DNA from: Actinomycetota bacterium
GTDB taxonomy: Bacteria; Actinomycetota; Thermoleophilia; UBA2241
NCBI GenBank assembly: GCA_003132645.1
Contig: PKYM01000167.1
Span: 1,829-12,287 of the forward strand
DNA length: 10,459 nucleotides
Direction of reading: 5' to 3'
Shown here: positions 1-10,459 of the stretch, piece by piece
Numbering within the stretch: the first letter of the stretch is position 1
Layout: every line of letters starts with the position of its first letter
Made by a program: the position numbers and the translations under genes
The notes under the pieces: model-generated
What the model saw: only the letters and a program-made list of their open reading frames with translations
What the model was told of the DNA's origin: nothing
Databases searched by the model: none

Positions 1-441
1 CTTGATCACCGCGCCGCCGATCTCGAGACCGACCTTGGCGACCACGCCCAGCACGTTGCGTTCGGCAGGGTCGGCGTCGGGTCCCACGACGAAGTCGGGG
101 GCGGCGAGAGCGTAGAAATGGGCGATGTGGCTGTGCAGGAAGTGAGCGCTGTAGTACATCTGACGCAACTTGACGGCAAGAGGCGCCACCTCGCCGCCGA
201 AACAGGCATCGACGGCCTTGGCGCTGGCCATGTGGTGCGACGCCGGACACACGCCGCAGATGCGGGTCACGAGCCGCGGCAGCTCCTCGATCGGCCGGCC
301 CACGACGAAGCGCTCGAAGCCGCGCAGCTCGGGGATCTGAAAGATGCAGTCCTCGACGGCGCCGTCGTCGTCGAGGAAGATCTCGATCTTGCCGTGACCC
401 TCGAGGCGGGTGATCGGATCGATGCTGATCTTCCTGGTCAT
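1..441 (-). CDS. mvhA: MvhA-like [NiFe] hydrogenase large subunit, 5' part only
   Basis: This is the N-terminal 147 codons of the catalytic large subunit of a cytoplasmic group 3c-like [NiFe] hydrogenase, which splits or forms H2 at a Ni-Fe(CN)2CO site. The reading frame stays open from the ATG at 441 to the window edge, so the C-terminal half, including the second cysteine pair, lies outside. Visible marks are the start MTRKISIDPITRLEGHGK, typical of the family, and the L1 motif RICGVCPASHH (residues 60-70), where Cys62 and Cys65 are the first pair of Ni/Fe ligands. Its ATG overlaps the stop of the small-subunit gene by 4 bp (ATGA), so the two subunits are translationally coupled. It is the last visible gene of the leftward operon. 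The family call is secure. The subgroup (MvhA rather than another group 3 enzyme) rests mainly on the neighbouring MvhG, MvhD and HdrA genes. Confidence 0.93.
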   Translation of the reverse strand, partial: MTRKISIDPITRLEGHGKIEIFLDDDGAVEDCIFQIPELRGFERFVVGRPIEELPRLVTRICGVCPASHHMASAKAVDACFGGEVAPLAVKLRQMYYSAHFLHSHIAHFYALAAPDFVVGPDADPAERNVLGVVAKVGLEIGGAVIK

Positions 442-1403
442 GTCCGCACACTCCTCTGCAGCAGCGAGGACGGCAGGCCGAACCGGTAGGCGTAGCCCGC
501 GAAATCCGGCAGCCCATCGATGATCTCCTCGATCTCCTTCGGGTCTTTGCTGTCGATGATCGAGACGACGGCGCTCAGGAACTTGGCGCCCTGGTCGACT
601 ACATTGGGGAGCGGACCATAGCAGCCGCGGCAGGGGATGCCGCTGCTCGGACAGCGCACCCCGCACCCCGAGCGCGTCGCCGGCCCCGCGCACAGGATCC
701 CCTGTTCGAGCAGGCAGACGTCGGGATCGGCCATGATCTGCCACGGCCGGTAGAAGTGCTTCACCTTCTTCTCGTTCTTGACGCGCGGGCAGTCGTCGCA
801 GACGGCGCGCTCCGAGGCTCCCACCACCGAGCCCTTGGCCGGCAACTCGCCAGCAATCACCGCCTCAAAGACCGCCTTCACCTGATCGGCGGCCGGGGGG
901 CAGCCCGGCACGTAGTAGTCGACGTCGATCACGTCGTTCAACTTGTACACGCGCTTGTAGAACCGGGGGATGGTGAGCTGCGAACCGTCGAAAGCGGTCT
1001 CGGGGTGTGGGATCGTGGTGTTGCCGGGTTCGATCGAGGGGTTGTGCAGGTAGGCGGCCGTGAAGATCTCCTCCCTGGTCACGAAGTTCGCGAGACCGGG
1101 AATGCCGCCCATGTGAGCGCAAGAACCAAAGGCGACCACGAGCTTGCTCTTCTGCCGCAGGAGTTTTGCGATGTGCTCGTTCTCGGAGTTGCGTACCGCT
1201 CCGTTGAAGACGGTGAGGTCGAGCTCGCCGTCCTCCATCGCTTCGACGTCTTTGTACTTGCCGTCGACGGCGATGGGCCACAGGCGAATGTCTGCGACGG
1301 CCGCGATGTCGAGGATGAACTCGTTGGTGTCGAGCACGGCGACGTCGCAGCCGCCGCACCCGGCGCCCCAGTAGAGAGCGATCTGAAGTTTTCTAGCAGC
1401 CAC
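438..1403 (-). CDS. mvhG: MvhG-like [NiFe] hydrogenase small subunit
   Basis: This 321-residue iron-sulfur subunit would relay electrons from the Ni-Fe site to MvhD. The cysteine pattern accounts for three clusters. The proximal-cluster ligands are Cys16 and Cys19 (in GCGGC), Cys95 (GSC) and Cys168 (PGCPP). Eight further cysteines at 202, 205, 230, 238, 247, 251, 258 and 261 suit two more [4Fe-4S] clusters. There is no Tat signal ahead of the first cysteine motif, so the enzyme is cytoplasmic, unlike group 1 uptake hydrogenases. The start is a GTG at 1403 preceded by a GAGAGGTGA ribosome-binding site, 3 bp after the mvhD stop. Its own stop overlaps the mvhA start by 4 bp. Length and cysteine spacing fit MvhG/VhuG-type subunits. 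FrhG-type subunits are similar, but the MvhD and HdrA neighbours favour the non-F420 type. Confidence 0.93.
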   Translation of the reverse strand: MAARKLQIALYWGAGCGGCDVAVLDTNEFILDIAAVADIRLWPIAVDGKYKDVEAMEDGELDLTVFNGAVRNSENEHIAKLLRQKSKLVVAFGSCAHMGGIPGLANFVTREEIFTAAYLHNPSIEPGNTTIPHPETAFDGSQLTIPRFYKRVYKLNDVIDVDYYVPGCPPAADQVKAVFEAVIAGELPAKGSVVGASERAVCDDCPRVKNEKKVKHFYRPWQIMADPDVCLLEQGILCAGPATRSGCGVRCPSSGIPCRGCYGPLPNVVDQGAKFLSAVVSIIDSKDPKEIEEIIDGLPDFAGYAYRFGLPSSLLQRSVRT

Positions 1404-1406
1404 CGC

Positions 1407-1841
1407 TCACCTCTCAACCGCGTCGGTTGCCAACGCCGACTTGACCAGACTCGGCCCCAGCTCGCAGAGACGCTCAGTCATGTCATCGACGATGTCGGCG
1501 AAACGTTTGCCTTCGCTGGCGCTGACCCACTCGAGGCGCACGCGTTCGTCATCGATGCCGTAGTCCGCAAGCAGGCGCTTGAGCAGCGGATAGCGACGCA
1601 TGGTCTTGTAGTTGCCCTCGGTGTAGTGACAGTCGCCGGGGTGACAGCCGCAGATCAGCACGCCGTCGGCGCCTTCGGCGAGGGCCTTGATGACGAAGGT
1701 CGGGTCTATGCGGGCCGAACACATGACGCGGATGACACGCACGTTGGGCCTGTACTTGATGCGACTCGTACCGGCCAGATCGGCGCCGGTGTAGGAGCAC
1801 CAGTTGCAGAGAAAACCAACGATCTTGGGCTCGAACGTCAT
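1407..1841 (-). CDS. mvhD: MvhD-like iron-sulfur linker subunit (FlpD/MvhD family)
   Basis: This 144-residue protein belongs to the MvhD/FlpD family. In methanogens MvhD carries a [2Fe-2S] cluster and passes electrons from the hydrogenase, or from formate dehydrogenase, into HdrA. Conserved cysteines are visible at 12 and 15 (LCNWCSY), 41 (MCSARIDP), and 64, 66 and 71 (ICGCHPGDCHY), which are the family's characteristic motifs. The ATG at 1841 overlaps the stop of hdrA copy 1 by 4 bp, and the gene is followed 3 bp later by mvhG. This physically places it as the link between the hydrogenase and HdrA copy 1. It is a stand-alone protein here, whereas in some HdrA and QmoB proteins it is fused. 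No key residue appears to be missing. Confidence 0.92.
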   Translation of the reverse strand: MTFEPKIVGFLCNWCSYTGADLAGTSRIKYRPNVRVIRVMCSARIDPTFVIKALAEGADGVLICGCHPGDCHYTEGNYKTMRRYPLLKRLLADYGIDDERVRLEWVSASEGKRFADIVDDMTERLCELGPSLVKSALATDAVER

Positions 1842-3559
1842 TCAAGCACCCCCTCGATCTCTGCGAAGATCTGCTCGTCGGTGAAGTGCCGCGCCTTGAT
1901 GGCTCCCGAAGGGCACGCCGCCACGCAGGCTCCACATGCCTTGCACAGTGCGCTGATGATGTGACTGCGGCGCTTCGTCTCGTCGTACTCGATCGCGACG
2001 TAGGGGCAGAGCTCGTTGCAGACGCGGCACCCGGAGCACCGATCCTCGTCGACCTCCGCGTACACGGCGTCGACCACCAGCTTGCCGCGCGCTATCCTCG
2101 CGAGAATGCGGGCGGCGGCGGCACGGGCTTGGGCCACGGTGTCGGGAATGTCCTTCGGCGCCTGGCAGGCGCCGGCGATGAAGATGCCATCCGTCGTGGT
2201 GGCGACGGGGTCGAGCTTGGGGTGGCTTTCGATGAACCAGCCATCCTTGTCGGTGCTGATGCTGACGAGGTGGGCGACGTCATCGACGTCCTCGCGAGGC
2301 TCCATGCCCACCATGAGGATGACGAGATCTGCCGGGATCTCCACCGTCTCGCCGGAGAGTAGCTCGTTCACCTCGATCAGCATGCCGCACTCGTCCCCGG
2401 GGTCGGCCTTGCGGATCACGGGATGTTCGCCGCGTCCGTACATGAGGAACAGCGTTTTGACCTCTGAGCTCTGGCGGTAGAAGTCCTCGCAACCCTTCCC
2501 GAACGCGTGCATGTCGACGTAGACGTCGGAGACGTAGCTCTTCGGCAACGCCGACTTGACCTCGTGGGCGTACTTCAGGGCCGTCATGCAGCAGACCCGC
2601 GAGCAGTAGCTGTGGTACTCCTCGCTGCGACTGCCCACGCAATGGACGATGGCGACGAACTGCGGCGGCCGGCCCTCCTTTGTCTCGATGCGCCCCTGGC
2701 GCAGCATCCTCTCGAGCTCGAACGACGTGATCACATTCGGCAGCTTGCCGTAGCCGTAGTGCGTGATCCGCGCCGCGTCGAACTCCTTGTAGCCGGTGCA
2801 CACGATGACACTGCCGACATCGACCGCAGCATTGCCGTCGGCGGCGTTGGCCAGGCTGCCGAGGGTGGCCTTGAAGTTACCGACGAACCCGTCCAGCCGC
2901 TCGACACGGCTCTCCGTCATGACCTCGATGTTGTCGTGTTCGAGCACACGAGTGACGAGGTAGGTCAGGATGTCGCGGGCAGAGTCGAGGTAGGGCGCCG
3001 TAAGGTCGACGCGCGCGATGTTGCCACCGAGATGATCCTGCTTCTCGACGAGGTAGACGCGTTTGCCTGCGTCGGCCAACTCGAGCGCCGCCGTCATTCC
3101 CGCGATGCCGCCCCCAATGACCAGCGTGTTGGGGCACATGTCGACCGACATCCGCTCCAGGGGCTCATGGCGAGCGACCCGGTTGACTGCGGCGTGGACC
3201 AGGGCCTGCGCCTTCTCGGTCGCGATCGCCCCGTCATCGTGGACCCAGCTGCATTGCTCCCTGATATTGGCCATCTCGAACAGATACGGGTTCAGGCCGG
3301 CCGTCTCGAGCGCCCGCCGGAAGGTCTGCTCGTGCATGCGCGGGCTGCAGGCGGCGACGACCACGCGCTCGAGGGATTGCTCCTCGATGTCCTGCACGAT
3401 CATCTCCTGGCCGGGGTTGGAGCACATGTACTTGTACGAACGCGCGACGACAACACCCGGCAGCTTCGCCGCGAACTCAGCGACCGCGTCGCAATCCACG
3501 ACCTTTGCGATGTTCGTGCCGCAGTTGCACACATAGACACCGATGCGTGGCTCTTCCAT
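1838..3559 (-). CDS. hdrA: HdrA-like flavoprotein, copy 1 (with C-terminal 2x[4Fe-4S] domain, no inserted ferredoxin)
   Basis: This 573-residue HdrA/QmoA-family flavoprotein is the probable FAD electron hub that accepts electrons from MvhD. The N-terminal domain has the cluster cysteines Cys11 and Cys13 (VCNCGTN), Cys46 (MCSNPGQ), Cys71 (ACSPRMHE) and Cys103. The FAD-binding glycine motif GGGIAG is at 149-154. The cysteines of the non-canonical cluster next to FAD are Cys307, 319, 323 and 324 (HCVGSR and YCSRVCC). Two C-terminal [4Fe-4S] motifs have cysteines at 508, 511, 514, 518 and 539, 542, 545, 549. Between the FAD glycine motif and residue 307 there is no inserted ferredoxin domain, unlike methanogen HdrA. 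I chose the ATG at 3559, where family homology begins and a GAGGGGGTGA Shine-Dalgarno sits 8 bases upstream. The frame stays open up to 3763, but that extension is antisense to the preceding gene and lacks homology. The stop overlaps mvhD. Confidence 0.9.
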   Translation of the reverse strand: MEEPRIGVYVCNCGTNIAKVVDCDAVAEFAAKLPGVVVARSYKYMCSNPGQEMIVQDIEEQSLERVVVAACSPRMHEQTFRRALETAGLNPYLFEMANIREQCSWVHDDGAIATEKAQALVHAAVNRVARHEPLERMSVDMCPNTLVIGGGIAGMTAALELADAGKRVYLVEKQDHLGGNIARVDLTAPYLDSARDILTYLVTRVLEHDNIEVMTESRVERLDGFVGNFKATLGSLANAADGNAAVDVGSVIVCTGYKEFDAARITHYGYGKLPNVITSFELERMLRQGRIETKEGRPPQFVAIVHCVGSRSEEYHSYCSRVCCMTALKYAHEVKSALPKSYVSDVYVDMHAFGKGCEDFYRQSSEVKTLFLMYGRGEHPVIRKADPGDECGMLIEVNELLSGETVEIPADLVILMVGMEPREDVDDVAHLVSISTDKDGWFIESHPKLDPVATTTDGIFIAGACQAPKDIPDTVAQARAAAARILARIARGKLVVDAVYAEVDEDRCSGCRVCNELCPYVAIEYDETKRRSHIISALCKACGACVAACPSGAIKARHFTDEQIFAEIEGVLE

Positions 3560-3565
3560 GACGGT

Positions 3566-3574
3566 CACCCCCTC
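3566..3574 (-). promoter_or_regulatory. Ribosome-binding site deciding the hdrA copy 1 start
   Basis: On the minus strand AGGGGGTG lies 8 bases before the ATG at 3559. It argues for that start against the upstream in-frame GTG at 3568, which lies inside the Shine-Dalgarno itself, and against the longer open frame to 3763. Confidence 0.7.
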
Positions 3575-4718
3575 ACGCGGCCCGCAGGCCTTCGGACGGC
3601 ACCGACGCCGGCTCCCGCCGTGTGAGCCCCTCCGCCCGCACGTCCGCGAAGTACATGGCCAGCGGCCGGTAGGCCAGATGGGACCACTTGCCGAAGGGAA
3701 CCTCAAGCGCGAGCATCGGCACAACGACCGAGAGATGCACGACATACATGATGTTGGCGGCAACGTCGACGCCGCTATGGTGCAGGATGCTCTGACTGAT
3801 GCCGGTCAGGGTCACGACCAGAAGCAGAACGAGGAACAACCAGTCGGATTCGTGTGAGTGCGTATACTGCGCCGACGACTTCCGTAGTCGATTGCGCAAG
3901 AAGAGGACGCTCCCCACGACGAGCCCGACGGTCGCCAGGTAGCCGAAGATGTGCACGTACCAATCGATCTTTGGACCGGAGGCCATCTTCGACAGGAAGA
4001 ACATGATCAGCACGAGCATGGTCAGGTAGCTGAGCATCAGCACGAGGTGCGTGAGCCACGGCGTCTTGCGCGCGCACTTCGCGTAGCGCATCTGGGTAAT
4101 GAAGTGGGCGGGCAGCAGGTAGGCCTTGGTGATGTAGCTCTTCATCGGCACTTTGACTGATCGGTCACGTCCGACCGTGTACCACCACATTCGTGCCGCG
4201 TTGCTGAGCAGCACAGCGAGCAGGAGCATGGCCAAGGTCCAGTCGAAGACGTGGATCTTCGAGCTGGGCAGGAACGCGTTCGAGCCGTTGTAGTGGGTGA
4301 TGCTTCCCTGGGAGAAACCGAACAGCAGGAACCCCAGAGCCGTGAGAAAGCCGACGAGCAAAATCGCACCGACCTCCCAACGCCACGACCGGTAGAAGAG
4401 CCGCGAGATGCCGGTCCAGTCGTAGCGCGACGTGAGCCAACGGCGCAGGCTCATCATCGTTTCGCCAGGTTCGGCCTCGCGAGGGCACTGCTCGGAACAC
4501 TCGCCGCAGTAGTAGCAGAGCCACGGCTCCAGGCCGCCCTTGAGCTTGTCTTCGAGGCCCATCTGCAGATTGCGCATCGACCTGCGCGGAAACACGTACG
4601 GGTCGCTGGAATGGACACACACGGCGGAGCAGTTGCCGCAGTGATAGCACTTCGACACGTCCTCGGCGCCGTACACCTCGAGCTCGTCGATGAGCTTGGG
4701 GTTGATGCGTAGTGCCAT
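3573..4718 (-). CDS. qmoC: QmoC-like membrane subunit: HdrC-type 2x[4Fe-4S] domain fused to a heme-b-type membrane domain
   Basis: This 381-residue protein combines a soluble electron-transfer domain with a membrane anchor, the architecture of QmoC (HdrC plus HdrE fused). In sulfate reducers QmoC links QmoAB to the menaquinone pool. Residues 24-34 (CYHCGNCSAVC) and 68-78 (CYYCGECSEQC) give two four-cysteine [4Fe-4S] motifs. About six hydrophobic segments follow, near 115-136, 158-176, 222-243, 254-273, 293-312 and 322-343. Candidate heme ligands in or near them are His205, His224, His256, His313, His314 and His328. Loops rich in Arg and Lys (around 180-190 and 275-281) probably face the cytoplasm. 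The ATG at 4718 follows a GGAGGAG site that overlaps the hdrA copy 2 stop 8 bp upstream, and hdrA copy 1 begins 13 bp downstream. It probably anchors the HdrA/Mvh proteins to the membrane and exchanges electrons with quinone. Separate HdrC plus HdrE or another NarI-like cytochrome b is the alternative reading. The name QmoC is by architecture, not proven orthology. Confidence 0.82.
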   Translation of the reverse strand: MALRINPKLIDELEVYGAEDVSKCYHCGNCSAVCVHSSDPYVFPRRSMRNLQMGLEDKLKGGLEPWLCYYCGECSEQCPREAEPGETMMSLRRWLTSRYDWTGISRLFYRSWRWEVGAILLVGFLTALGFLLFGFSQGSITHYNGSNAFLPSSKIHVFDWTLAMLLLAVLLSNAARMWWYTVGRDRSVKVPMKSYITKAYLLPAHFITQMRYAKCARKTPWLTHLVLMLSYLTMLVLIMFFLSKMASGPKIDWYVHIFGYLATVGLVVGSVLFLRNRLRKSSAQYTHSHESDWLFLVLLLVVTLTGISQSILHHSGVDVAANIMYVVHLSVVVPMLALEVPFGKWSHLAYRPLAMYFADVRAEGLTRREPASVPSEGLRAA

Positions 4719-4726
4719 GGCTCCTC

Positions 4727-6535
4727 CTACACCGTCGCCAGGCTCTTGGCCCGCGTCTCAATGTCTTCGAGGCTGAGGCTCTCGAGGCTATCCACACCCT
4801 TGCCGGTGACGATGGTCTTCAGCACACGAGCGGCCACCGCAGAAGCCTGCGCGACCGTGTCGGGGATGTCCTTCGGTGCCTGGCACATCCCGGCGACGTA
4901 GACCCCCCCACGCTCGGTGCCTGTTGGATCTGCGTTGTAATCGGCCTCGGCGAACCAGCCGGCCTCGTCACGCGGGATGCCAAGCATCCAGGCGAGCTGG
5001 TCCGACCGCGCGGCGGGCACCAGGCCGACCGCGAGAAGGACCATGTCGACGGGGAACTCCATCATCTTGTCGCTGATGATGTCCTCTCCCCTGACGATCA
5101 TCTGGCCGTCGTGCTCGGTGATGGTCCCCGATCGGCCACGCATCACGAAGGTCCCCTCGGCTTTGATGCGCTGGAAGAACTCGTCGTAGCCTTTGCCGAA
5201 GGCGCGCATGTCTATGTAGAACTCGTAGCACGTCGCGTCGGGCAGCTTCTCTTTGACGAGGTGCGCGAACTTGAGCGAGTACATGCAGCAGACCCGCGAG
5301 CAGTAGGCGTTGAAGTTGGCGTCGCGCGACCCGACGCAGTGGATGATGGCGACGCTGCGCGGCGAGGGACCCTCGGGGTCGAACACCCACTCCTCGGCTT
5401 TCTTGCGCTTGTTGAGACGCTTGGTCTTGAGCACGATGCGACCGCCGGTGGGTCCCGACGCATTGGTCAGGCGCTCGAACTCCAAGGCGGTCAGGACGTT
5501 GGGGTGGGTGCCGTAGCCGTATTGCTCGATCCTGTGGGCATCGAGCACGTCGTAGCCCGTCGCCACAACGACGTTGCCGATCTCGATCTGCAGGACATCG
5601 CCGTGCGCGTCCAGGTCGATACAGTCCTTGGGGCACTTCTTGGCGCAGGCGCCGCATTTCTTGCCATTGCTTTGCACATACGTGCAGGCAGACTCATCGA
5701 CCAGGTAGGCCGCCGGGACCGCCTGAGGGAAAGGTATGTAGATCGCCTTGCGCGTGGCGATGCCGGCGTCGAACTCGCTCGGCACCGAAACGGGACAGAC
5801 GTCGGAGCAGATCCCGCAGGCGACGCAGGACTCCTCGTCGACCCTGCGCGCGTTGCGCAACACCGTCGCCTTGTAGGCGCCGGGTGAGCCGGTGATCGCC
5901 TCGACTTCGGAGTACGTCAGCAGGTCGATCATCTCGTGCTGGCCGACCGACACCATCTTCGGAGTCAGGATGCAGGCGGCGCAGTCGAGGGTCGGGAAGG
6001 TCTTGTCGAACATCGCCATGTGGCCGCCGATGGTGCCGGTCCGCTCGACGAGATAGACCCTCTTGCCCGCGTCTGCGATCTCGAGAGCCGTCTGGATGCC
6101 GGAGATCCCAGCTCCGATCACGAGCGTGGCCGCGTTGGTCCTGGTCTCCTTGGGCACCGCCGCCAGCGGAAACGGAACGCCGTAGACGGCGCAGGCCAGG
6201 ATGGACTTGGCACGTTCCGAGGAGTCTTGCGTCACTCCCCCGTGTTCGCGAAACGAGGCGAGCCGGACCTGCTCGGGGTCGGCGTCGGCGAGGGCCATCG
6301 CCCTGGTGAACGCCGGCTTGAAGAACCCCGGCGAGTCGCCGGCGATCACGATGGCGTCGAGCCGCGCCGCCGCGATCTCCTCTGCGAGAGCGTCGGGATC
6401 GATCGTCGGCAAGGAGCCCAGGGGTCGCACGCTTTCGACCTGCGGGAGATTCGCGGCGTAGTGCGCCACGGCTTCGAGAGCTGCCTCGTCAGCCAGCGCG
6501 CTGCCGACCTGGCAGATGTACACCCCAATCCTCAT
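4727..6535 (-). CDS. hdrA: HdrA-like flavoprotein, copy 2 (inserted ferredoxin domain kept, N-terminal cluster and C-terminal ferredoxin lost)
   Basis: This 602-residue HdrA homologue is the first gene of the leftward operon. The FAD motif GAGISG is at 141-146, followed by a family motif with two cysteines, LDCAACILTPKM (Cys185, Cys188). An inserted ferredoxin domain has cysteines 237, 240, 243, 247 and 284, 294, 297, 301, with an extra Cys305. The cluster next to FAD has Cys400, 412, 416 and 417 (HCVGSR, YCSRVCC). The N-terminal domain (about 1-130) keeps its fold-like length but has lost the cluster cysteines: only Cys8 of the usual set remains, and SPRMHE-type sequence is replaced by SPGFFK. 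The protein ends shortly after the FAD domain, without a C-terminal ferredoxin module. The ATG at 6535 follows a GGGGGAGG ribosome-binding site. In the methanogen HdrA structure the inserted ferredoxin domain is regarded as the ferredoxin exit, so this copy may host the ferredoxin branch. Confidence 0.9.
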   Translation of the reverse strand: MRIGVYICQVGSALADEAALEAVAHYAANLPQVESVRPLGSLPTIDPDALAEEIAAARLDAIVIAGDSPGFFKPAFTRAMALADADPEQVRLASFREHGGVTQDSSERAKSILACAVYGVPFPLAAVPKETRTNAATLVIGAGISGIQTALEIADAGKRVYLVERTGTIGGHMAMFDKTFPTLDCAACILTPKMVSVGQHEMIDLLTYSEVEAITGSPGAYKATVLRNARRVDEESCVACGICSDVCPVSVPSEFDAGIATRKAIYIPFPQAVPAAYLVDESACTYVQSNGKKCGACAKKCPKDCIDLDAHGDVLQIEIGNVVVATGYDVLDAHRIEQYGYGTHPNVLTALEFERLTNASGPTGGRIVLKTKRLNKRKKAEEWVFDPEGPSPRSVAIIHCVGSRDANFNAYCSRVCCMYSLKFAHLVKEKLPDATCYEFYIDMRAFGKGYDEFFQRIKAEGTFVMRGRSGTITEHDGQMIVRGEDIISDKMMEFPVDMVLLAVGLVPAARSDQLAWMLGIPRDEAGWFAEADYNADPTGTERGGVYVAGMCQAPKDIPDTVAQASAVAARVLKTIVTGKGVDSLESLSLEDIETRAKSLATV

Positions 6536-6960: not shown

Positions 6961-8295
6961 GTGAGCCTGCAATCCACGCTGCGCTATGTCGACCCCTTGC
7001 GCGAGCGCGGGAATCACAAGATCAATGCCGGCACGCGCGCCGTCTTGCTCACTGTCAATCAGAAGGTCGCCGCGAAGCTCTCCCTGAACGATGTCGTCGA
7101 CTTTCTCTTTGAGCGCACGCGTTCGATTATTCCTTGCGACCGCATCGGCCTTGCATTCGTTGAAGACGACGGCCATCGCATCGTCTCGCACTACGCGCGA
7201 GCGGACTATCAACCCCTCCTTCTCACGCGCGGCTACGCCGGCGATCTTCGCGGGAGCTCGCTGGAGCCCATGATCAAGACAGGCAAGCCGCGTATCGTCG
7301 ACGACCTTGTCAAGTACCTCGAAGCTCACCCCGGAAGTCACTCGACGCGACTCCTGGTCGGCGAAGGCGTGCGGTCGAGCCTGACCTGCCCCTTGATCGT
7401 GGAAGGCCGAGTTCTGGGATTCCTCTTTCGCAGCTCACGCCAGGCGTACACATACACTGCGCACCACGTCGAACTGGAGATGGCAATCTCTGAGCGGCTC
7501 AGCCAGGCAGCGGAGAAGGCGTGGCGTATCGAGCAGCTGACGGCCGCCAACCACGCGTATCTCGAGATGCTGGCGTTCGTGAGCCACGAGATAAAGAACC
7601 CCGTCGCCTCGATCGTCACCGACGCCCGCTTGCTGGCCGACGGGTACCTGGGAGCGCTCGAGCAGCCACAAAAAGACAAACTCGAACGACTGATCGGCAA
7701 GGCGCAGTACCTCCTCGAGCTTGCCCAGGACTACCTCGATCTCGCGCGGGTCGACGGCGGGCAGCTGGTGCTCGAGGCCGACGCCCAAGTCGACGTGGTC
7801 GGCGAGGTGGTCCTTCCGGCTATCGACATCGTGCGCAGCCAGATCGATCGGCGGAGCATGCACGTGGAGCTCTCCCTGCCCGACGAGTGCGCCGCCGTCG
7901 AGTGTGACTCCGGCCTTCTGCGCATCGTTCTCGTGAACCTGCTCAGCAACGCGGTGAAATACGGCAACGAGGGTGGCGAGATCCGTGTCGGCGTCGTGCG
8001 CGAACCGTCACGACTTGCCGTCTCGGTGTGGAACGAAGGTCAGGGCTTCCCCCCCGAGGACCGCGCCAGACTCTTCCGGCGGTTCTCTCGTCTCCGCTCG
8101 ACCGCGGCGCAGAAGAAGGGAACCGGGGTGGGACTGTACAGCGCCTGGCGGATCATCCAGTTGCATCACGGGCGCATCCGCGCACGGTCGGAGCAGGGAG
8201 CCTGGGCCGAGTTCTCATTCGAACTGTCTCAGCCGCTGGGGGTCGAAGGCGGAGCCGCCGAGAACACGGATCGTCACGCCACCGCGCGCCCGTAA
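6961..8295 (+). CDS. Soluble GAF-domain sensor histidine kinase (HisKA type)
   Basis: This 444-residue cytoplasmic sensor kinase has no membrane segment. Residues about 30-185 form a GAF domain, which binds small ligands or cofactors in this family; the ligand cannot be read from the sequence. The dimerisation domain carries the phosphoaccepting His209 in FVSHEIKNPVASI, a classical HisKA H-box. The ATP-binding domain follows: N-box LLSNAVKYG with Asn330, G1 motif WNEGQG (357-362, with Asn in place of the usual Asp), F-box RLFRRFSR and G2 motif GTGVGL (387-392). It starts with GTG after GGAGGT. The next kinase gene begins 22 bp after its stop. Its HisKA class usually partners OmpR- or receiver-only regulators, yet the only regulator nearby is NarL-type. 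It may cross-talk with the second kinase or act on a distant regulator. The last 20 residues look unstructured. Confidence 0.93.
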   Translation: MSLQSTLRYVDPLRERGNHKINAGTRAVLLTVNQKVAAKLSLNDVVDFLFERTRSIIPCDRIGLAFVEDDGHRIVSHYARADYQPLLLTRGYAGDLRGSSLEPMIKTGKPRIVDDLVKYLEAHPGSHSTRLLVGEGVRSSLTCPLIVEGRVLGFLFRSSRQAYTYTAHHVELEMAISERLSQAAEKAWRIEQLTAANHAYLEMLAFVSHEIKNPVASIVTDARLLADGYLGALEQPQKDKLERLIGKAQYLLELAQDYLDLARVDGGQLVLEADAQVDVVGEVVLPAIDIVRSQIDRRSMHVELSLPDECAAVECDSGLLRIVLVNLLSNAVKYGNEGGEIRVGVVREPSRLAVSVWNEGQGFPPEDRARLFRRFSRLRSTAAQKKGTGVGLYSAWRIIQLHHGRIRARSEQGAWAEFSFELSQPLGVEGGAAENTDRHATARP

Positions 8296-8317
8296 CGGAT
8301 CGCAGGAGACCGCGGCC

Positions 8318-9370
8318 ATGGCAGGTGCGCTTCGCGACGGACGCCGGCCGGCAGTGCGCAACCGTTCCTTTCCCCAAGAGATGCTCCTCGCCAACTGCGT
8401 CATCGTCGCCGCGTTCGTCGCGGGCGCCGCCATCGTCGCGCGTCACCTGTCGGGACAGTCCGCAATCGCGACCGGTGGCCTACTTGTCGTCGGCGGCCTC
8501 GCCGTCACGGCACTCGTCAATGTCGCGCTGTCCAGGCACGCGTGGAACCGCCTGAGCGAGCTCAGCAGTGCCATGGAATCCGCCCACAAGGGCGAGTTGC
8601 GGCAACGAGTGCGCGTCGACTCAGTCGATCCCGAGCTGCGCAGGCTGGCTCTGTCTTTCAACAACATGTGCGCACGCCTCGAAGACGAGTCGCGCCAGTA
8701 CGCCGCGAAGCTCCTCAGCTCGATTGAAGATGAACGTCGCCGCATCGGGCGGGAGTTGCACGACGAGACCAGCCAGACTCTTGCGGCGACCCTGGTGATC
8801 CTCAATCTGGCGGAGAAAGCCCTGCAAAGCGGCGACCTGCTCGGCGCCCATGAGCACGTGGCCAACTCCACGGCGCTCATCGGACACAGCATCGACGAGA
8901 TCAAGCTGCTCGTGTACGATCTCAGGCCCGTCATGCTCGACGATATCGGCCTTGCTCCGACCCTGCGGTGGTACATTCAGTCGCACCTGAAGGACGCTGG
9001 CCCAACGATCGTCACCGATTTCGAGGGCGCCACTTCTCGACTGCCGAGCGAGGTCGAGACCGCGCTCTACCGAACAACACAGGAGATGCTGGCCAATGCC
9101 GTCCGACACGCCTCCGCGACCAAGATCATCGTCCGGCTCGAGACCCGACCCGGGTACGCCAATCTCGCCGTTATCGACAACGGCCATGGGTTCGACCCCG
9201 ACGCCGCCCTCCACAGCACAGATCGGCGGGGGCTCGGGCTGCTGTCCATCAAGGAGCGGGTCGAGCTGGTCGGAGGAACTGTGAACATCGAATCGACTCT
9301 AGGGCGGGGTACACGCGTCTACGTCGTCATCCCCTTCGAAACCGAGCCACCCAGCGTGGGGAAGCCATGA
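8318..9370 (+). CDS. Membrane HAMP-HisKA_3 sensor histidine kinase (NarX/DegS-like class)
   Basis: This 350-residue kinase belongs to the class that partners NarL-type regulators. Two hydrophobic segments (about 22-42 and 52-71) are joined by a loop of only about ten residues, so there is almost no extracytoplasmic sensor. A HAMP linker (about 72-125) follows. The HisKA_3 domain has His148 in RRRIGRELHDETSQTLAA, and DLRPVMLDDIGL (201-212) is the usual second conserved helix. The ATPase domain shows the N-box QEMLANAVRHA (Asn260), G1 DNGHGF (287-292) and G2 GLGLLSIKER. I chose the ATG at 8318, which has AGGAGA 8 bases upstream. The frame is open to 7973, but that extension lies within the preceding kinase gene. 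Its stop overlaps the response regulator start by 4 bp, so the pair is coupled and almost surely cognate. The stimulus could be membrane or quinone state, but that is inference. Confidence 0.93.
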   Translation: MAGALRDGRRPAVRNRSFPQEMLLANCVIVAAFVAGAAIVARHLSGQSAIATGGLLVVGGLAVTALVNVALSRHAWNRLSELSSAMESAHKGELRQRVRVDSVDPELRRLALSFNNMCARLEDESRQYAAKLLSSIEDERRRIGRELHDETSQTLAATLVILNLAEKALQSGDLLGAHEHVANSTALIGHSIDEIKLLVYDLRPVMLDDIGLAPTLRWYIQSHLKDAGPTIVTDFEGATSRLPSEVETALYRTTQEMLANAVRHASATKIIVRLETRPGYANLAVIDNGHGFDPDAALHSTDRRGLGLLSIKERVELVGGTVNIESTLGRGTRVYVVIPFETEPPSVGKP

Positions 9371-10072: not shown

Positions 10073-10459
10073 TCAGCAGATGCGCGGCAGCAGCTCGCCG
10101 ACCGGCATGTCGACGACGCGACGGGTGCCGTAGGCGGTGCGCAAGGCCACGCGACCGGGGTGCTCCGTGGTGAGGGCGCCGATGCGCGCTGCGCGGGCGC
10201 CCTCTGGGCGCCCGCGCAGCGCGCCGAGCACCGCTTCGGCCCGGTCGGGCGCGACGACGAACACCATCTTGCCCTCGTTGGCCAGGGAGAGCGGGTCGTA
10301 GCCCAGCAGGTCGCAGGCCGAGCGCACCGCCGCCGACACTGGAATGGACTCTTCGTCGATGTCGATGCCCAGCCTGCTTTCTTCGGCAAGCTCGGCCAGG
10401 ACGGTCGCAAGCCCGCCGCGCGTGGGGTCGCGCATGAAGTGGATCGCCTCGCCGCCGGC
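10073..10459 (-). CDS. hypE: HypE, hydrogenase maturation protein, 3' part only
   Basis: These are the last 128 codons of HypE, which dehydrates an S-carboxamide on its own C-terminal cysteine to a thiocyanate and so supplies the CN ligands of the [NiFe] centre together with HypF, HypC and HypD. The visible part starts at the family motif FMRDPTRGGLATVLAE and ends VVDMPVGELLPRIC, with the C-terminal Cys that carries the modification. The reading frame runs off the right edge, so the N-terminal ATP-binding half is outside. The gene converges on the response regulator and lies on the same strand as the hydrogenase operon, separated from it by the signalling cassette. The sequence shows no frameshift. 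Coding positions 10184-10224 contain a perfect hairpin. Confidence 0.94.
   Translation of the reverse strand, partial: AGGEAIHFMRDPTRGGLATVLAELAEESRLGIDIDEESIPVSAAVRSACDLLGYDPLSLANEGKMVFVVAPDRAEAVLGALRGRPEGARAARIGALTTEHPGRVALRTAYGTRRVVDMPVGELLPRIC
10184..10224. repeat. Perfect 19-bp-stem inverted repeat inside hypE
   Basis: The arms at 10184-10202 and 10206-10224 are perfect reverse complements, separated by TCT. The left arm begins GCGCGCTGCG and is almost pure G and C. It lies wholly within the hypE frame, encoding roughly GALRGRPEGARAAR. From memory, the family has residues at these positions, so it does not look like an insertion. It could be a REP-like element, an mRNA hairpin or a transcription or translation pause site. 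Confidence 0.85.

Follow-up and report, generated by a model that had tools for sequence, protein, structure and literature searches.

The closest described counterpart of the locus analysed here is archaeal. 'Candidatus (Ca.) Methanoglobus hypatiae' carries a highly expressed cluster encoding MvhAGD, two HdrA proteins and a QmoC fused to HdrC, with HdrB absent, for which bifurcation of electrons from H2 to menaquinone and ferredoxin has been proposed (PMC10945360). The same paper reports that no aprAB or dsrAB was found in the M. hypatiae genome and cites the same cluster for 'Ca. M. nevadensis', and PMC12008871 cites the same source for an Mvh–Qmo–Hdr cluster. We describe here a bacterial cluster of matching composition, hdrA_a–qmoC-like–hdrA_b–mvhD–mvhG–mvhA, found in a 10,459-nucleotide stretch of DNA (the window) from an Actinomycetota bacterium (contig PKYM01000167.1; G000:C193:1829-12287). 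As described, both clusters have MvhAGD, two HdrA proteins, a QmoC with an HdrC domain and no HdrB; the Methanoglobus cluster is archaeal (Archaeoglobi), whereas the present set is bacterial, bears several phylum labels and has swappable H2, NADH and formate modules. The source cited for the 'Ca. M. nevadensis' Mvh–Qmo–Hdr cluster is reportedly Buessecker et al. 2023 (PMC10504316).

Other known systems share parts of this arrangement. Like the window, the HdrABC–MvhADG complex (5odc, 8rvu) takes its input through MvhADG and has HdrC-like clusters along with the HdrA domains and their cysteines; the window differs in lacking HdrB, in having two complementary HdrA halves instead of a single four-domain HdrA, and in linking the HdrC-like part with a membrane domain. 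In sulfate reducers, QmoABC likewise has two HdrA-like subunits that split the HdrA features and a QmoC with Fe-S and membrane parts, but the present cassette occurs without AprA, includes a hydrogenase and an MvhD encoded as a separate protein, retains the complete inserted ferredoxin domain, and has His256 and His/Tyr313 where QmoC rows outside its clade mostly have Arg at both positions. In the HdrA pairs and fusions of anaerobic methanotrophic archaea (ANME) and in Moorella MetFV-HdrABC, one HdrA has the N-terminal cluster but lacks Cys197 and the other has Cys197, as here, but the outputs are HdrBC or HdrD, not QmoC (PMC9012536).

The nearest bacterial case is a species in which a separate hdrCBA–mvhDGA and Qmo have been suggested to cooperate (PMC4911364), and elsewhere mvhA2DG is clustered with hdrA1 and HysAB (PMC2702500). 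No description of a bacterial cassette of the present kind was found in the open-licence literature among the matches listed, and the excerpts of PMC10553843, PMC7380581, PMC3949148 and PMC9539880 do not describe one. An earlier interpretation of the window made from its letters alone (the sequence-only reading) held that no characterised enzyme has this composition. This stands in so far as no report of a purified enzyme of this type was found among the same open-licence matches, but the composition and the reaction had both already been proposed for 'Ca. Methanoglobus' (PMC10945360). The cassette is a real, conserved bacterial version of that proposed archaeal complex. The Mvh–Qmo–Hdr cluster with its proposed reaction (PMC10945360) and the complementary ANME HdrA pairs were already known; the bacterial spread and the swapping of inputs on one core are new here.

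A conserved bacterial cassette

The six genes all lie on the minus strand within window positions 1-6535, in a metagenome-assembled genome (MAG) of 3.24 Mb, 370 contigs and 87.95% completeness:

4727..6535, minus strand: hdrA_a, 602 aa; NF040770 545 bits over model positions 1-564/777, below the cut-off of 1100; phmmer match to 5odc_A residues 5-568
3573..4718, minus strand: qmoC-like, 381 aa; NF038018 qmoC 188 bits over 5-360/360, below the cut-off of 300
1838..3559 (start at 3559 inferred), minus strand: hdrA_b, about 573 aa; NF040770 617 bits in two stretches, below the cut-off of 1100; aligns to 5odc_A 1-234 and 319-649
1407..1841, minus strand: mvhD, 144 aa; PF02662 FlpD 183.6 bits; expected connector between the input module and HdrA_b
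438..1403, minus strand: mvhG, [NiFe]-hydrogenase small subunit, 321 aa; PF01058 87.4 bits; NF045875 VhuG 210.8 bits, below the cut-off of 450
1..441, minus strand: first part of mvhA, [NiFe]-hydrogenase large subunit, which runs out of the window to position 902 of the full contig; PF00374 120.4 bits for the whole gene

The coordinates and the shared order in relatives bear out the tightly packed operon described in the sequence-only reading: gaps of 8 nt (hdrA_a/qmoC), 13 nt (qmoC/hdrA_b) and 3 nt (mvhD/mvhG) occur together with 4-nt overlaps (hdrA_b/mvhD and mvhG/mvhA). On the full contig (L009, 17,847 bases) mvhA is followed by a hydrogenase maturation protease gene (L009 926-351; TIGR00072 87.1 bits, cut-off 47.45), and the contig stops about 350 nt beyond it. 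A 3-base run of N within mvhA (L009 1826-1828, read as X) makes a scaffold join inside the MAG possible; relatives have the identical gene order.

A neighbourhood search, which the sequence-only reading had proposed for hdrA–qmoC–hdrA–mvhDGA, found it conserved. An 18-row QmoC alignment scanned against GTDB species genomes gave 93 confirmed relatives, of which 80 were kept; no archaeon is named in the record titles of these 80 loci. Neighbours were labelled by BLAST against the window proteins and a few proteins from fetched loci, by which distant partners may be missed. The order hdrA_a then qmoC occurs in 31 of the 80. Four of these (L033, L051, L052, L062) stop at or before the end of hdrA_b, and of the 27 that extend further, 24 carry mvhD and mvhG (21 of them reach mvhA) and three carry another module at MvhD, NADH-type in two and formate-type in one. 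An order that recurs this often goes beyond a chance arrangement. The 24 loci are labelled with seven lineages: Actinomycetota/Actinobacteria/Thermoleophilia, Eisenbacteria, Sumerlaeota, Acidobacteria (with Holophagae and Thermoanaerobaculaceae), Krumholzibacteria, Aminicenantes and a deltaproteobacterium, some of these labels being possibly wrong. The QmoCs of L047, L050 and L051 are near-identical despite the labels Aminicenantes, Acidobacteria and Chrysiogenales, which makes some record labels doubtful. Within the phylum, QmoC was found at 1e-60 in three of 246 sampled genomes, the window's own among them.

No HdrB belongs to the cluster, as had been claimed for the window. No CCG match was found on contig C193, and the 14 CCG matches of the genome, some of them HdrB-like proteins, all lie on other contigs. 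Since the maturation protease, and not an hdrB/hdrC pair, directly follows mvhA, a canonical HdrABC–Mvh locus with HdrB just beyond the window was ruled out as far as the contig reaches. Among 31 related loci HdrB was flagged in one, L023, where it belongs to a separate divergent hdrB–hdrA–mvhDGA cluster; as a positive control, all six HdrB-kind clusters with context were flagged. AprA is equally missing. With TIGR02061 (cut-off 641.75 bits), none of the 32 cassette genomes, the window's own included, passed the cut-off, weak matches in 20 of them reaching 55 bits at best. The search itself works, because 10 of the 48 control genomes that hold the other 49 QmoC loci passed (13 at 1e-60). The neighbouring aprAB that would mark an ordinary Qmo locus was thus not found.

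Hydrogenase, HdrA halves and QmoC-like subunit

The window's MvhA bears both Ni-binding motifs of a group 3c (Mvh-type) [NiFe]-hydrogenase large subunit (RICGVC and DPCYSC, of the forms RxCGxC and DPCxxC), and mvhA is the sole PF00374 ([NiFe] large-subunit) gene found in the genome. Across 22 cassette MvhA pieces the first motif is present in 21 and the second in 19; L022, L050 and L053 are cut or split frames, and the piece of L045 examined is without the second motif region. MvhG starts VAARKLQIALYWGAGCGGCD, with no Tat leader seen in the sequence, and has MvhD as its partner, in keeping with the cytoplasmic location assigned to it in the sequence-only reading. The set is not claimed as Vhu because the curated methanogen cut-offs are missed (VhuG 210.8 of 450 bits, VhuD 132.5 of 215, and VhuA 179.3 of 800 for a 147-aa fragment).

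Two kinds of Mvh hydrogenase can be told apart within the class, where an MvhA relative occurs at 1e-60 in 17 of 399 genomes. MvhAs of about 50-55% identity adjoin an HdrA encoded in a long frame (665-895 aa) and a CCG-motif HdrB in all six loci with context (L147, L155, L156, L159, L160, L161; L157, L158 and L162 are cut before that place). The HdrA of L155 matches the HdrA2 model over 1-640/777 and therefore spans both ferredoxin domains. MvhAs of at least 73% identity adjoin hdrA_a–qmoC–hdrA_b in the window and in all seven loci that have context (L149 is cut). Class-level loci L146, L148 and L150-L154 are the same records as L023, L092, L034, L025, L035, L053 and L022, and these seven are consequently not independent of the 31 cassette loci. 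In an MvhA tree that omits L022, L045, L050 and L053, one 100/100 branch separates 18 QmoC-linked MvhAs with several phylum labels from nine of the other kind, a split that broader sampling of the HdrB kind could alter, as all nine come from the window's family and three of them are without a visible HdrB. Genome G336, of the window's own genus, has a hydrogenase of the HdrB kind.

HdrA rows were aligned to Methanothermobacter wolfeii HdrA (5odc_A), the window supplying one row for each half; the truncated or missing pieces of L024 (HdrA_a, cut to 93 aa), L052 and L062 (both HdrA_b) were omitted because the wrong paralogue had been picked. HdrA_a keeps the eight inserted-ferredoxin-domain cysteines together with Cys194 and Cys197 in 31 of 31 rows, and in none of them has a Cys at 13, 46 or 71 or at the eight C-terminal ferredoxin positions. 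HdrA_b is the converse: no inserted-domain cysteines and no Cys194/197 in any of 30 rows, with the four N-terminal and the eight C-terminal ferredoxin cysteines each kept in 29, the two misses being due to a frame that is split in L034 and a contig that is cut in L051. Both keep the four flavin-domain cluster cysteines and the equivalents of Glu356 and Lys409, which presumably act at the flavin, in every row (31/31 and 30/30). The distances of HdrA_a and HdrA_b correlate (r 0.85, 17 loci). By alignment, HdrA_a and HdrA_b are complementary halves of the methanogen HdrA, and at that level the flavin residues and ferredoxin-donating inserted domain of a bifurcating HdrA are both present. The meaning of the domains and the role of Cys197 are taken from PMC9012536, in which heterodimers are inferred for tandem HdrAs of archaea that show this complementary pattern; by that pattern, each cassette would have a single route for input and a single route for output to ferredoxin.

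The QmoC-like subunit consists of an HdrC-like domain with two CxxCxxCxxxC motifs, matched by HdrC chains of the Protein Data Bank (PDB) over residues 18-93, and then predicted membrane helices with conserved histidines. The eight Fe-S cysteines are conserved, each of them in 28-29 of 29 cassette rows and 49-50 of 50 other QmoC rows. His156, 224, 256, 289, 328 and 347 are kept in all 29 cassette rows, and His224, 328 and 347 in all 79 QmoC rows. A structure model built from the 18-row alignment (mean pLDDT 71.7) contains the predicted helices. In a tree of 79 QmoC rows (omitting L062, L099, L018-L021 and further QmoC-like frames of the window's genome), the cassette kind falls inside a 43-row clade (100/100); its other members include the NfnB-like, Flx and formate kinds as well as four QmoCs that belong to Apr-type clusters. 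The examined rows of this clade have His256 and His313 (Tyr in L046, L052 and L068; L062 ends before 313), whereas QmoC rows outside it have Arg at both positions, except L094, L098 and L114. From the alignment, His256/313 may form an additional haem or quinone site. The four Apr-type-cluster QmoCs (L056, L059, L060, L061), from Myxococcota/Acidobacteria, represent a switch between hydrogen and sulfur enzyme contexts within the clade; AprA was found in three of their four genomes and not in that of L061.

A proposed reaction and its alternatives

Taken together, these comparisons make it probable that the six gene products form one complex, a membrane-attached, quinone-linked, ferredoxin-bifurcating and reversible [NiFe]-hydrogenase. 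H2 would be cleaved in the cytoplasm by MvhA/MvhG, and electrons would pass through MvhD and the C-terminal ferredoxin domain of HdrA_b to flavin adenine dinucleotide (FAD). HdrA_a and HdrA_b would be an obligate heterodimer that jointly has the features of one methanogen HdrA, with Cys197 of HdrA_a completing the cluster at the N terminus of HdrA_b. The electron pair would be divided at the flavin: one branch would reach soluble ferredoxin by way of the inserted domain of HdrA_a, and the other would run through the HdrC-like clusters of QmoC and its putative haems to menaquinone, so that QmoC would fill the place that HdrC and HdrB have in methanogens. The net reaction would be 2 H2 + ferredoxin + menaquinone to reduced ferredoxin + menaquinol. 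The sequence-only reading had suggested H2-to-menaquinone electron transfer with a possible ferredoxin branch, and the domain anatomy of the HdrA halves fits that suggestion; the activity and the ferredoxin reduction are predicted, and the direction may go either way.

The computed energetics and the menaquinone markers of most host genomes speak for this scheme. With potentials of -74 mV for menaquinone and -450 mV for ferredoxin (PMC10734219) or -500 mV for ferredoxin (PMC9012536), and -414 mV for H2 (PMC9304861), the net reaction was computed to yield -59 to -49 kJ per 2 H2 under standard assumptions. Equilibrium was computed at 0.7-5 Pa H2, and both uptake and release of H2 are therefore possible. 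H2 pressures of this order are usually quoted for syntrophic settings. Among the 32 cassette genomes, MqnA/MqnD are present in 23 and MenB at 1e-60 in six (four above the cut-off), so that at least one menaquinone marker is present in 25, the window's own included; AcsB/CdhC are found in nine, again including the window's own.

Several observations weigh against the proposed complex. The QmoC-like protein (188 bits against 300, though over about the full model length), HdrA_a (545) and HdrA_b (617, both against 1100) all score under their curated cut-offs, and a Foldseek search of the QmoC model against the PDB returned no match at E <= 0.001. The NarI chain 1siw_C ranked sixth (E 0.53) and was not taken as evidence. 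Hydrogenase-linked QmoCs are not a single clade, the linkage requiring 8 changes on the tree. The distances of QmoC show little correlation with those of MvhA, MvhG and MvhD (r 0.06-0.14) or with those of all five other proteins (r 0.06-0.35; 17 loci, omitting L022, L045, L050, L053, L024, L034, L051, L052, L062 and any locus in which one or more of the six pieces are missing). They do not support co-inheritance of QmoC with the other five, and QmoC has a history different from that of the hydrogenase; the poor correlation and the several clades indicate that QmoC is exchanged or evolving differently. Nor is the split of HdrA features special to the cassette, since QmoA and QmoB rows divide them likewise, and all 21 Chloroflexi-type-label QmoA rows keep all eight inserted-domain cysteines; a retained inserted ferredoxin domain is no proof of ferredoxin use. 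Finally, neither MqnA/MqnD nor MenB was found in seven of the 32 genomes (L047, L048, L050, L051, L054, L057, L058), and all of these but L057 form one QmoC subclade (96/89; genomes G263, G264, G266, G267, G270, G273), which speaks against menaquinone in that subclade unless the pathway was missed or quinone is taken up.

These points lend differing weight to four alternatives. A plain, non-bifurcating H2:menaquinone oxidoreductase, in which Mvh would deliver all electrons to QmoC by way of the HdrA pair and the inserted domain would be just a relay or a relic, would need no coupling because H2 to menaquinone alone is strongly downhill, and the Chloroflexi-type QmoAs show the same domain retained in clusters without assigned function. 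We nevertheless consider it unlikely: a relic would be expected to decay as in Apr-type-label QmoA, where nine of 12 rows have lost at least two of the inserted-domain cysteines, and the eight are intact in every HdrA_a row. Operation in reverse, in which fermentative or syntrophic cells would make H2 by confurcating electrons of menaquinol and reduced ferredoxin onto protons, is conceivable though not what we expect. The computed equilibrium pressure would suit it, and because AcsB/CdhC are so infrequent, CO2 fixation through them is not a common need of these genomes; against this, the window's own genome does have AcsB/CdhC, which demands reduced ferredoxin, and direction is not readable from sequence.

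It is improbable that QmoC, at least in the one subclade, passes electrons to an acceptor other than menaquinone. The seven marker-less genomes, six of them in that subclade, are what this explanation has in its favour, but markers are present in the other 25, MAGs are incomplete, and other biosynthetic routes or uptake may operate. Of nine QmoC histidines tabulated, the marker-less rows lack only His287, in four of the seven; as a mark of such genomes its loss was rejected, being shared by L024 and L028. Very little credence can be given to an ordinary QmoABC of adenylylsulfate (APS) reduction lying beside an unrelated group 3 hydrogenase. The homology of QmoC and the HdrA-like subunits to QmoABC and the presence of Apr-type-cluster QmoCs in the same clade would agree with it, but it was rejected because AprA passed its cut-off in none of the 32 genomes, as against 10 of 48 control genomes; moreover, the hydrogenase accompanies 24 of the 27 loci that extend past hdrA_b, and MvhD is a separate gene here, whereas QmoB has an MvhD-like C-terminal domain (PMC4911364).

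If the bifurcating quinone-linked hydrogenase is real, oxidation of H2 (or of formate or NADH) would in one step both reduce the quinone pool and yield ferredoxin of low potential, with no heterodisulfide involved. Anaerobic respiration would then be coupled directly to the turnover of H2 in lineages that bear the labels Actinomycetota, Acidobacteria, Krumholzibacteria and Aminicenantes, among others. Metagenomic MvhADG beside qmoC should then not be annotated as a feeder of heterodisulfide reductase; MvhA lineage together with an adjoining hdrB or qmoC would be a practical discriminator of the two hydrogenase kinds.

Interchangeable inputs and neighbouring genes

The three loci with another module share the hdrA_a–qmoC–hdrA_b core and MvhD with the hydrogenase loci. 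In L049 and L055, mvhD and three genes that we take, from their domain make-up, to be Flx-like precede the core, the last having FAD-binding, NAD-binding and DHODB-type Fe-S domains. In L057, a formate/nitrite transporter, mvhD and an Fe-S protein are accompanied by 74 residues of a molybdopterin protein at the contig end, for which formate dehydrogenase alpha is the top NCBIfam hit (1.3e-21, well short of the full-length cut-off). The Flx-like NAD-binding module and MvhD-like subunit of L049 and L055 are shared with NADH-linked FlxABCD-HdrABC (PMC10553843), from which they differ in that hdrA_a–qmoC–hdrA_b replaces HdrABC. A constant core with changing donors suggests that QmoC is the common output. 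More distant QmoC loci combine it with an HdrA that has an NfnB/GltD-like part (the L029 kind) or with NuoF-like proteins (L100), both presumptive names assigned by domains. We hold only tentatively, with somewhat more doubt than conviction, the wider idea that the half-HdrA pair, QmoC and MvhD are a general quinone-linked bifurcation platform, which would pass electrons from interchangeable H2, formate or NADH modules to menaquinone and ferredoxin in many uncultured bacterial lineages, with the subclade without known menaquinone genes perhaps using another membrane acceptor.

Other Hdr/Qmo clusters were noted alongside. A recurring Actinobacterial cluster (L027, L029, L031, L032, L036, L037) combines QmoC with a half-HdrA resembling HdrA_b and an HdrA that carries an NfnB/GltD-like part, and is possibly NAD(P)H-linked. 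The window's own genome further contains mvhD–qmoA–qmoB–qmoC of the Chloroflexi kind (L114, on C222), hdrB with an HdrA/NfnB-like fusion, mvhD, HdrA and a partial QmoC (L115, on C74), and an mvhD–flxCBA-like run (L111, on C131).

Scans of the window against Rfam (gathering threshold) and for tRNAs gave no matches. Beyond the operon, on the side opposite the maturation protease, lie hypE, hypD and hypF, each above its own cut-off, and the window contains these further features:

6961..8295, plus strand: GAF/HisKA sensor kinase between the operon and the hyp genes; PF00512, PF02518, PF13185
9373..10038, plus strand: LuxR-type response regulator; PF00072, PF00196; preceded by a HAMP/HisKA_3 kinase, frame 7973-9370 (PF07730, PF00672)
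10073..10459, minus strand: C-terminal part of hypE; TIGR02124 347 bits for the whole gene, cut-off 251.6; hypD and hypF come next on the contig

A relative of the HisKA_3 kinase also lies divergently upstream of the cassette in L023, L030, L043 and L058, accompanied by the LuxR regulator in L023, L043 and L058, and the kinase/LuxR pair possibly exerts a shared control of the operon.

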